A stretch of DNA of 35,742 nucleotides from Methanomassiliicoccaceae archaeon (GTDB lineage Archaea; Thermoplasmatota; Thermoplasmata; Methanomassiliicoccales; Methanomethylophilaceae): positions 1 to 35,742 of the forward strand of contig WRJJ01000007.1 of the NCBI GenBank assembly GCA_009778575.1. The letters are read 5' to 3'. Below the pieces are notes generated by a model that was not told the origin of the DNA, did no database searches, and saw nothing but the letters and a program-made list of their open reading frames with translations. Below are positions 21,052 through 33,976 of this stretch, piece by piece; within the stretch, counting starts at the first letter, position 1, and the number at the start of each line of letters is the position of its first letter. The translations under genes were made by a program, and so were the position numbers.

Positions 21052-21915
21052 TTGAGCAGGAGCATTCGGCAATCCGTGCCCATCATACTCGCAAGATATT
21101 CGGAGATAGGCCTCAAGAGCACGCCGGTCCGCGTCAAATTTGAGAACAGGCTCAGAGACAATATGATCTCAATGCTGGCCGGGGATAGGATAGAGGCACT
21201 GGTAACGAAGAGGGATGCGAGGTTCTATGTTGAGACCGGAGATATCGATGCGGCCGCGTCCGCCGTAAAAAGAGTGTTCGGCATTTCATCCCTGTCTGTT
21301 GCTGAGGTATGCTCTTCTGAAATGGAGGATATCTGTTCGACCGCGGCGGAATATTCGCTCAGCAGGCTGAAGGAGGGGGAGTCGTTCGCTGTCAAGGCAA
21401 GAAGGGAAGGGGACCACAGCTATACGAGCGTGGACGTGGGGCGGGAAGCGGGCTCCGCAATATTCCTGGCCAATGAAAGCAAGGGCGTCAAAGTAGACCT
21501 TACAGCCCCCGACGTCACATTCTATGTTGAGGTAAGGAACAATAAAGCTTTCGTTTTCGGGTCCTACGTAAGATGCCACGGAGGCCTCCCGCTCGGTACG
21601 CAGGGGAAGGTCATGGCCGAGATACGGAGCGACAGGGACATCCTTTCCGCATGGTTTATGATGAAGAGAGGGTGCAAGGTCATCGTCAACGGAGAGAGAC
21701 AGCCGCTGCTGGAAAGGTATGACCCAGACCTAAAATACGGGGCGGAGATATCCCCCGATATACTAGGCGTCGTCAAAGGCATTCCGCTGTCGGAACTGGG
21801 ATCCCAACCTATATCCGAATATGAGGTCCCGCTGTTCTTCCCCACGGCAGGAATGGCCGATGAGGAAGTACTCTCATTCATGAAAATGATAAAAGAAGAA
21901 AGTTCCCGCCGGTAA
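21052..21915 (+). CDS. THUMP-domain ThiI-like protein lacking a canonical PP-loop
   Basis: ILARYSEIGLKSTPVRVKFENRLRDN ... VRCHGGLPLGTQGKVMAEIRSDRDILSAWFMMKRGC; only 287 aa. Confidence 0.88.
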   Translation: MSRSIRQSVPIILARYSEIGLKSTPVRVKFENRLRDNMISMLAGDRIEALVTKRDARFYVETGDIDAAASAVKRVFGISSLSVAEVCSSEMEDICSTAAEYSLSRLKEGESFAVKARREGDHSYTSVDVGREAGSAIFLANESKGVKVDLTAPDVTFYVEVRNNKAFVFGSYVRCHGGLPLGTQGKVMAEIRSDRDILSAWFMMKRGCKVIVNGERQPLLERYDPDLKYGAEISPDILGVVKGIPLSELGSQPISEYEVPLFFPTAGMADEEVLSFMKMIKEESSRR

Positions 21916-21952: not shown

Positions 21953-22576
21953 TCACTTGCCTTTTCTTCCCTTTGCCTTGATCGAGGGTCTGATCTTCTC
22001 TGCGCCTTTGCCTTTGTTCCTCAGACCGCGTCCGGATATTCCGGCGGACGTAAGTCCGCGGTAGACACGGTTCTTGTTGTTGCTGTCGCAGATCCAGTTG
22101 ATCTTCGGGTCGGCCATTATGACAGGGTGCGCCGGATCGACGAGTATGATCTCATACCACTCCTGCAGACCGTCGGCGCCCACCCAATACGAGTTAAGCA
22201 CCTCAAGGTTCGGATACCTCTTCGCGGCCCTTTCCTCGGCCATCCTCTGGAGGCTTTTTCCGGTGGTTATCTTGTTGATACCTTTCCTCTTTGCTCTCCT
22301 TCCGGCCCTGATGGTCCTTTTCCTGAAGGATCCCTTCCTGACCCTGCCCCTTACCACGACGTAGCCCTGTTTGGCCTTGTAACCCAGGGACCTTGCCCTG
22401 TCAAGCCTGGTGGGCCTCTCGATCCTGATGAAGTTCTCTTCTCTCCTCCATTGGCTCTTCCTTTCGCGGTTGAGTTCTTTCAAATAAGATTTGTTGGGGG
22501 TCTTCCAAGCCTCCCCAATATAACTGTACATGCTTTTCCCGTTGACCGGGCGCACATCCTGACCTTCGTCGCTCAT
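21953..22576 (-). CDS. rpl15e: 50S ribosomal protein L15e
   Basis: [12 protein letters not shown]...[29 protein letters not shown]. Confidence 0.97.
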
Positions 22577-22776: not shown

Positions 22777-23700
22777 ATGAATGTTAACAAAATAATGCAG
22801 AAGGACAGGTCCGGAATAGGTACTATCCTGATCGTGGTGATCGTGGTAGTGGTTCTGGTCGCCGCAGCGGCCGCGGCGTACGTCGTCCTATCAGGCAACA
22901 ATGATAATAGTAGTGATGAAGCAGAAGAGACAACACAAATATTGGCACCCGGGACAGTGATGAAATACGACGAGTTCAACGCCGCAGGGCTGAAGACTGG
23001 GACCATAGAAATGGAGATACTCGGGCAGAATGCCGATGAATACTTCCTGAAAGTTACAGTAATGACAGGGATGGTGGGAGCATATTCGTACAACTTAGAA
23101 CCAAAAGATAGCTCCGACGGAGCGACAAAAACGGGAACGATCCAGTTTGATACCATTGACGGATTAAAGACCCTGGATGTGTGGACATATCCTGACGGGA
23201 CAAAATCATACGTTGACCCAGAAAGCGGAATAGAGTATGGGGGACAGATCGGCTCCGGGAGTAACGCTTCGACACTGAAGCTTTCAGTCTACAGCCCAGT
23301 ATGGCAGGACGAAGATGCCTACACTGAGTCAAGTAACATTGGCAAGACATATGAATATGTCGGGACAATGACGGGGAGCACAAACAACTACGCCGCCAAG
23401 ATAGTATGCGTAGCTGACTGCAAGAACGGCCAGTTTGGAGTGATGTACGATCTGAACGGTTCCGCGTTGTACTTCCTCAGCAACAACATCCAAGGTCTGC
23501 CGACAGATACCGAGAACACAGGCGTCACAGATACCATGACCGGCACGATAGACGGTGACAAGGCAGTTCAGCTGTGGAAATATCCTCTAAGTGTGGGCGA
23601 GATAACGTTCTGCTATGATCCCGCGTCACATCTCGTTTACAGGTTCGTAATTCCCCAGTCATCAGGGAATATTGACTTCGACCTTTCAAAGAAGCCTTAA
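22777..23700 (+). CDS. Membrane-anchored secreted protein, pilin-like N-terminus (paralog A)
   Basis: KDRSGIGTILIVVIVVVVLVAAAAAAYVVLSG anchor then extracellular-type domain; SD ggagg. Confidence 0.8.
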   Translation: MNVNKIMQKDRSGIGTILIVVIVVVVLVAAAAAAYVVLSGNNDNSSDEAEETTQILAPGTVMKYDEFNAAGLKTGTIEMEILGQNADEYFLKVTVMTGMVGAYSYNLEPKDSSDGATKTGTIQFDTIDGLKTLDVWTYPDGTKSYVDPESGIEYGGQIGSGSNASTLKLSVYSPVWQDEDAYTESSNIGKTYEYVGTMTGSTNNYAAKIVCVADCKNGQFGVMYDLNGSALYFLSNNIQGLPTDTENTGVTDTMTGTIDGDKAVQLWKYPLSVGEITFCYDPASHLVYRFVIPQSSGNIDFDLSKKP

Positions 23701-23803: not shown

Positions 23804-24712
23804 TTGAATGTTAGTAGAATGATCTGGAAAGATAGGTCGGGAGTGGGTACGCTCCTGGTGATAGCGGTCGTGGTCATCCTGGTCGCCTCAGCGGCCGCAG
23901 CGTACATCGTCCTGTCAGGCAGCGAGGATAAAGAAGAAGGGGCGATATTGGCTCCGGGAACGGTGTTAAAATATGACCTGTTCGTCGCCGATGATGATTT
24001 TGGAAAGTATGAGTTTGAGATACTCGGGCAGAACTCTAAGGAATATTTCGTCAAGTTGACCACTGAGGTCGGGGCATCTGAAGTTTCACAATATACTTCG
24101 ACTCCGAAAGGGAACCCAGCCGGCATGAAGAAAACAGGCACCATTGTGTTCGACACAATGGACGGCGAAAAGACGCTGGAAGTATGGGAGTACGGCGGGG
24201 TAAAATCCTATGTTGATCCCTCAAGCGGGTTTGAGTACGGCGGAGAAATGTCGTTCGGAGAAGACACCGTAGTAATGAAGCTGACCTACTATGAACTCAT
24301 ATGGCAGGAAGAGTACAAAGAATCTGAATTCATAGGCAAAGCTTATGAGTATACTTACCGAGACGGAGCAAGGTCACTCAAAATGTATGTGAGATGCATA
24401 GCAGATTGTTTGGACGGCCAGTATGGCGTGGCGTATGATTTCTCATCGTTCATGTCAGGCAGTACGTCCAATAAGGATTATTTCTTGTGTGACAGCCCTC
24501 AGGGGTTGCCCAAAGATGCAGTATTCACAGAGAGTACGTACACTTTGACGGGTACGATAGACGGCGACATATCAGTTGAGATATGGGAGTTCATGATCGG
24601 CGATATGATGGGGTACGTTCTCTACTATGAGCCAGATACGAATATTATTTACAGGGTCGTCTTGAAGTCCGGTGTGAACGAGATTCTTTTCGACCTTACC
24701 GGCAAACCCTGA
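23804..24712 (+). CDS. Membrane-anchored secreted protein, pilin-like N-terminus (paralog B, TTG start)
   Basis: KDRSGVGTLLVIAVVVILVASAAAAYIVLSG, LAPGTVLKYD, EILGQNSKEYFVKLT align to paralog A. Confidence 0.8.
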   Translation: MNVSRMIWKDRSGVGTLLVIAVVVILVASAAAAYIVLSGSEDKEEGAILAPGTVLKYDLFVADDDFGKYEFEILGQNSKEYFVKLTTEVGASEVSQYTSTPKGNPAGMKKTGTIVFDTMDGEKTLEVWEYGGVKSYVDPSSGFEYGGEMSFGEDTVVMKLTYYELIWQEEYKESEFIGKAYEYTYRDGARSLKMYVRCIADCLDGQYGVAYDFSSFMSGSTSNKDYFLCDSPQGLPKDAVFTESTYTLTGTIDGDISVEIWEFMIGDMMGYVLYYEPDTNIIYRVVLKSGVNEILFDLTGKP

Positions 24713-33646: not shown

Positions 33647-33976
33647 TCAAAAGACATCCAGGCTCTTTGGTACTTTGCCTTTTTTGCTAAGGTTCACTGC
33701 CTGGGTCCTGGTGTACCTGAACCTGACATCGCATTTATCGGGCTGGAAATCCCAGAGGGAAACAATAAGGAGATCGCCCTCTCGTATCCACATCCTCTTT
33801 TTGATCTTCCCCGGTATGCGGCCCACTCTGGACACTCCGTCCTCGCACATGACCTTGATCTTCGATGCGCCGAGCAGCTGGTCGGCTATCCCGAACATCT
33901 CTCCTTCTTTGATGTTCGGCATACGTACGCGTGATACGTCCTCTTCAGTGCTCTCGAACGGTTCTTCTGCCGGCAT
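33647..33976 (-). CDS. Translation initiation factor aIF-1A
   Basis: RVRMPNIKEGEMFGIADQLLGASKIKVMCEDGVSRVGRIPGKIKKRMWIREGDLLIV; ATG 33976 fits the upstream TATA (catttaaaaga) better than 34006. Confidence 0.94.
   Translation of the reverse strand: MPAEEPFESTEEDVSRVRMPNIKEGEMFGIADQLLGASKIKVMCEDGVSRVGRIPGKIKKRMWIREGDLLIVSLWDFQPDKCDVRFRYTRTQAVNLSKKGKVPKSLDVF

Follow-up and report, generated by a model that had tools for sequence, protein, structure and literature searches.

Introduction

ThiI/TtuI (TIGR00342; structures 4kr6 and 2c5s) is the tRNA U8 4-sulfurtransferase, and in its canonical form it is a single polypeptide that joins an N-terminal ferredoxin-like domain (NFLD) and a THUMP domain to a PP-loop (PP) domain. 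In the Thermotoga maritima ThiI dimer, the PP domains form the main contact, the tRNA bound on the NFLD-THUMP of one chain is modified by the PP domain of the other chain, Lys17 of the NFLD loop is directed into the active site of the other subunit, and Gly168 and Asp319 are named as one inter-subunit hydrogen-bond pair (PMC4041423). A CxxC+C motif is reported for archaeal ThiI/TtuI.

ThiI-like proteins without the PP-loop are already known. The 'ThiI-like protein' PH1313 of Pyrococcus horikoshii (PDB 1vbk) combines NFLD-THUMP with a smaller PP domain that has no SGGxDS, and its activity was left open by a 2023 review (PMC9957541); the sources consulted describe no partner for it. Stand-alone ThiI-type PP-loop proteins are likewise catalogued, as the 'hypothetical protein' family PRK08349/NF006222, whose record holds no link to pseudo-ThiI. 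The eukaryotic s2U34 synthetase Ncs6/Ncs2 (Ctu1/Ctu2) is also a two-protein tRNA thiolase (PMC10067955). One of its partners has a degenerate PP-loop; this enzyme belongs to another family, acts on U34 and has no THUMP domain, and its likeness to the present case is one of layout only. In the open-access literature, we found no paper tying a pseudo-ThiI to a stand-alone PP protein or describing a split or two-subunit ThiI, and the pairing of these two proteins is, as far as the papers searched are concerned, the new part of this study.

The window analyzed here is a stretch of 35,742 nucleotides (contig WRJJ01000007.1) from a Methanomassiliicoccaceae archaeon. We propose, with a probability of roughly 0.8, that a pseudo-ThiI encoded in it binds tRNA as the non-catalytic subunit of an s4U8 synthetase made up of two proteins.

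A ThiI-like protein with a reduced PP-loop domain

The gene lies at 21052-21915 on the forward strand, as does each domain described below, and forms an open reading frame of 287 aa from a TTG start without internal stops, in keeping with the first-pass annotation of a short protein free of frameshifts. The start codon is uncertain between TTG 21052 and GTG 21076, the latter of which may be the better match to the conserved start in relatives. The NFLD (residues 11-82; 21082-21297) matches ThiI_fer (PF22025) at 8.7e-15 and bears the invariant RYxExGLK loop; residue mapping identified K22 as the counterpart of T. maritima Lys17. The THUMP domain (residues 90-169; 21319-21558), a putative CCA-end binder with invariant G134 and V148, matches PF02926 at 4.5e-12, and the linker GGLPLG with the reduced PP-loop-like domain follows at residues 178-287 (21583-21912). 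In the Pfam search, no match of the window protein to the ThiI PP-loop domain exceeded the threshold, and TIGR00342 aligned over model positions 1-199 of 373 only, scoring 128.7 bits where the cut-off is 264.5 bits.

In the alignment, GKVMAEIRSDRDILSAWFMMKRGC occupies the place where ThiI carries GKxxxLxSGGIDSPVAxWxMMKRG; the PP-loop does not lie elsewhere in the protein, and SGGxDS is replaced by IRSDRDIL. The loss extends to all 18 aligned family members: S182, G184, D186 and S187 of Thermotoga ThiI are not conserved as such, and variable residues, mainly charged or polar, stand at the SGGIDSPVA position. Deletions in the same 18 orthologues have also removed the CxxC segment, the GxSLGQVASQ loop and the loop with the catalytic Cys, and the segments for the catalytic Cys (Cys344 type) and the CxxC+C of the archaeal subclass are missing from the pseudo-subunit.

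The core strands and the MMKRG helix are retained. The part of the protein that follows the linker still has about 100 residues, with pLDDT mostly above 80 in an AlphaFold model whose values for the entire protein are pLDDT 91 and pTM 0.87. Since these residues fold with good model confidence, the PP domain is, as modelled, a reduced and folded pseudo-domain rather than an absent one. The earlier claim that THUMP was kept and the Ser-Gly-Gly-x-Asp-Ser loop lost is therefore borne out by Pfam, TIGR00342 and the alignments, while its picture of the loss needs correction as to the domain itself. Foldseek ranked PH1313 first and ThiI second, and PH1313 is the best match in both sequence (3.3e-23) and fold (3.8e-25, TM 0.80).

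The RNA contacts of ThiI are partly kept. The equivalents of T. maritima R10, Y11, E13, G15, K17, R21, R46, G126 and V138 are invariant in 18/18 pseudo-subunits, and R10, K17, R21, R46, G126 and V138 are RNA contacts among this set, whereas the equivalents of K19, W44, K104, Y119 and R141 are not kept in the 18 aligned proteins.

A stand-alone PP-loop partner gene

Searching with the ThiI model revealed a second open reading frame of about 210 aa, spanning model positions 174-369, in nearly every genome of the class. The partner proteins match PF02568 with E values of 1e-57 to 1e-59 and have the motifs SGGIDSPVA, YQCVLCKR (CxxC) and GDSLGQVASQTL, with a third Cys at the Cys344 place; C85, C88, C168 and SGGIDSPVA are invariant. 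The catalytic domain of ThiI/TtuI is wholly kept by this protein, and what is one polypeptide in the canonical enzyme is here two genes, with a dead PP domain on one. The nearest named family besides ThiI is PRK08349/NF006222 (5e-58), matched at 196 bits, which is under its 251-bit cut-off.

The stand-alone PP protein was present in 60 of 61 related genomes, the window genome being the sole one without a match. In 18/21 regions (the L083-L097 and L167 loci), a conserved methyltransferase-csl4 (exosome) pair precedes the PP gene, with csl4 immediately upstream in the reference order of genome G005. In the window genome, the assembly of which is 92.6% complete, contig C9 stops at base 33885 within csl4, about 465 bp upstream of where the PP gene would be expected to begin. 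As the contig breaks the syntenic block inside csl4, we read the unseen gene as falling in an assembly gap, and we infer that the partner is present in the window genome itself.

Physical linkage and co-occurrence of the two halves

In the host order, the canonical pseudo-ThiI and PP genes occupy different loci and are not neighbors. In two Candidatus Methanolliviera genomes, NFLD, THUMP, the pseudo-PP domain and the PP domain form one open reading frame. The model of this fusion (pTM 0.59) is too weak for judging a docked interface. Within the host family, second copies of both genes form overlapping operons in G250 and G312; the second pair of G277 is also an overlapping operon, with its pseudo gene truncated by the contig end, G307 has an in-frame run-on of the two, and G025 has a divergent neighboring pair with the dispersed copies retained. 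The genes are operonic in the Thermococcaceae G329, G330 and G344 as well. The suggestion of a tRNA-presenting subunit working with a separate sulfurtransferase gains support, at the level of gene organization, from this linkage in several lineages and from the partner gene in 60/61 genomes.

Two side observations belong to these loci. The NFLD of the G307 run-on (L099:7794-9332, minus strand) contains an amber (TAG) codon, which may be pyrrolysine, an error or decay. A further pseudo-ThiI paralogue, with SDKNS at the PP-loop, occurs in Methanolliviera G335 (L218:2846-3775) beside the genome's fusion copy.

In a survey of 140 genomes of the class, an intact ThiI was present in 18, never together with a separate half (0/18). 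The other 122 comprised 102 with both halves, 9 with the pseudo-ThiI only, 8 with the PP protein only and 3 with neither; co-occurrence within the class was not significant (p 0.08), the association being weak because both halves are near-universal. Outside the class, the 41 genomes of the phylum without a full ThiI comprised 26 with both halves, 11 with neither, 3 with the pseudo-ThiI only and 1 with the PP protein only (Fisher p 1.3e-6, a value that overstates the association because the surveyed genomes are related), and both states occur within each of the families f44 and f50. In Thermococcaceae, the pseudo-ThiI was found in 10/61 genomes, 7 of them without a full ThiI; the stand-alone PP protein was present in 10/10 of these, a count that alone says little, since it is also found in most of the remaining genomes.

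The possibility that the Thermococcus stand-alone PP proteins found beside a full ThiI are dead was considered and rejected: they have the motif SSGIDSPVA, and in genomes like G336 such a protein is the only copy, so that they are probably active. Other variants of the motif were also seen, namely SPGIDSPVA or SPGMDS replacing SGGxDS in full-length ThiI (L055, L056 and L061), SSGIDS (L059) and SAGIDS (L062).

The pseudo-ThiI might instead act alone, as a binder or chaperone of the tRNA acceptor stem, with the stand-alone PP protein doing an unrelated job. NFLD-THUMP is by itself a tRNA-binding module, and most genomes have the two genes at separate conserved loci, which would suit this explanation. 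However, it does not account for the fusions, the overlapping operons, the paired second copies and the co-loss, nor for a partner that has all ThiI catalytic motifs yet lacks an RNA-binding domain, and we regard it as unlikely.

Genome context, conservation and selection

The gene for ribosomal protein L15e (21953-22576, minus strand; named from its sequence) neighbors the window gene, and rpl15e is next to or close to the pseudo-ThiI gene in 20/21 regions. Since G013 has neither the pseudo-ThiI gene nor rpl15e, its missing pseudo-ThiI is probably a gap. Further along the window are two adjacent and similar open reading frames of about 300 aa (22777-23700 and 23804-24712). Each has a hydrophobic segment at its N terminus, and judging from their sequences they resemble a surface-protein gene duplicated in tandem.

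This context bears on a second alternative, that the pseudo-ThiI pairs with another enzyme, such as an NcsA/TtuA-type PP-loop protein or a methyltransferase, in the way that Tan1/THUMPD1 pairs with the ac4C acetyltransferase. THUMP partner proteins of the acetyltransferase are known (PMC12255305), but no other recurrent RNA-modification catalytic neighbor was recognized beside the pseudo gene, and it is the ThiI-specific PP half that co-occurs and is fused with the pseudo-ThiI. We consider such a pairing distinctly improbable.

Orthologues were identified in 57/61 related genomes from 6 families, and the intra-genus pN/pS of the entire gene is 0.15-0.24, a rough value because synonymous sites are near saturation. 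The corresponding intra-genus values, likewise rough, are higher for the dead domain (pN/pS 0.24-0.43) than for NFLD-THUMP (0.09-0.18). No intact ThiI was found by profile searches in the window genome or its order; the PF02568 matches in the window genome, examined as candidates, were weak and represent QueC and the PP subunit of GMP synthase. In-frame stops were also considered as pyrrolysine sites in the orthologues, and were terminal stops in those checked.

The faster evolution of the dead domain could be taken as a sign of a decaying ThiI paralogue under relaxed selection. This explanation is very hard to sustain, since the genome has no intact ThiI, the frame is open in more than 50 genomes of several families, and the gene is kept across the order and the phylum with a pN/pS that indicates purifying selection. 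These data agree with the earlier proposal of a stable pseudoenzyme. An assembly or frameshift error that split one gene has no specific support and is practically negligible, as the same architecture occurs in many independent assemblies, single-contig genomes included, and the PP half is located elsewhere.

Trees and the number of splits

Quick trees, with SH-aLRT support alone, were built for both halves. The NFLD-THUMP tree unites the dead-domain proteins from the class with those from Methanolliviera in one clade (97), with L181 outside, whereas the Thermococcales pseudo-ThiI are nested inside Thermococcales ThiI (99). PH1313 falls in this latter clade and the window protein in the former; therefore, the PP-loop loss of PH1313 is independent of that in the window family. 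In the PP-domain tree, the class's stand-alone proteins fall into one clade with the PP domain of Methanolliviera (96), L101 excepted, and the Thermococcus PP proteins L144 and L145 are nested in Thermococcales full ThiI (98). The agreement of the two trees indicates the same history for both halves and at least two independent splits.

The exception at L101 (7902-8687; G067, family f13) is a bacterial-type stand-alone PP protein without CxxC that groups with bacterial ThiI (98). As G067 retains the archaeal pseudo-subunit, the catalytic partner has apparently been swapped, judging from these sequences.

A repeated archaeal conversion of homodimeric ThiI to an obligate two-subunit enzyme appears likely. 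The PP domain would have been duplicated, with one copy losing its activity but persisting as a scaffold within the chain that binds tRNA, and the second turning into a separate catalyst, at least twice: in an ancestor of much of the phylum plus Methanolliviera, and in Thermococcales. Fused, operonic and dispersed stages of this process would be visible today, and in f13 the partner would have been replaced by a bacterial-type protein.

Proposed mechanism and significance

Concerning the function of the two-protein s4U8 synthetase, NFLD and THUMP would grip the acceptor stem and the CCA end of the tRNA, fixing the distance to U8, while the PP-loop protein of about 210 aa (SGGIDS, CxxC + C, GxSLGQVASQ) would bind ATP, adenylate U8 and transfer sulfur to give the s4U8 product. 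The dead PP-loop domain may be retained as a docking surface that stands in for one side of the PP:PP dimer interface of ThiI, holding the two proteins in a physical complex. In this complex, K22 of the NFLD loop would enter the active site of the partner, as Lys17 does between T. maritima ThiI subunits, and a ThiI-type dimer could be split provided that each tRNA-binding module still had a single functional PP domain. A [4Fe-4S] cluster is probably used by the PP-loop protein for sulfur transfer, because it has the CxxC+C reported for archaeal ThiI/TtuI. The equivalents of Gly168 in the linker (18/18 pseudo halves) and of Asp319 in the PP domain (13/13 PP halves) are both kept; as they sit in generally conserved motifs, they are consistent with docking without proving it. 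We found no s4U measurement for these organisms in the literature.

If this proposal is true, PH1313, whose structure (1vbk) is solved, would gain a function, as would a 'hypothetical' PP-loop family. The s4U8 pathway would be accounted for in much of an archaeal phylum where it has been missing, and this includes an order whose genomes yielded no intact ThiI. The system would further be a natural example of a homodimer that has changed into an obligate heteromer, one subunit of which is a pseudoenzyme, with intermediate stages present.
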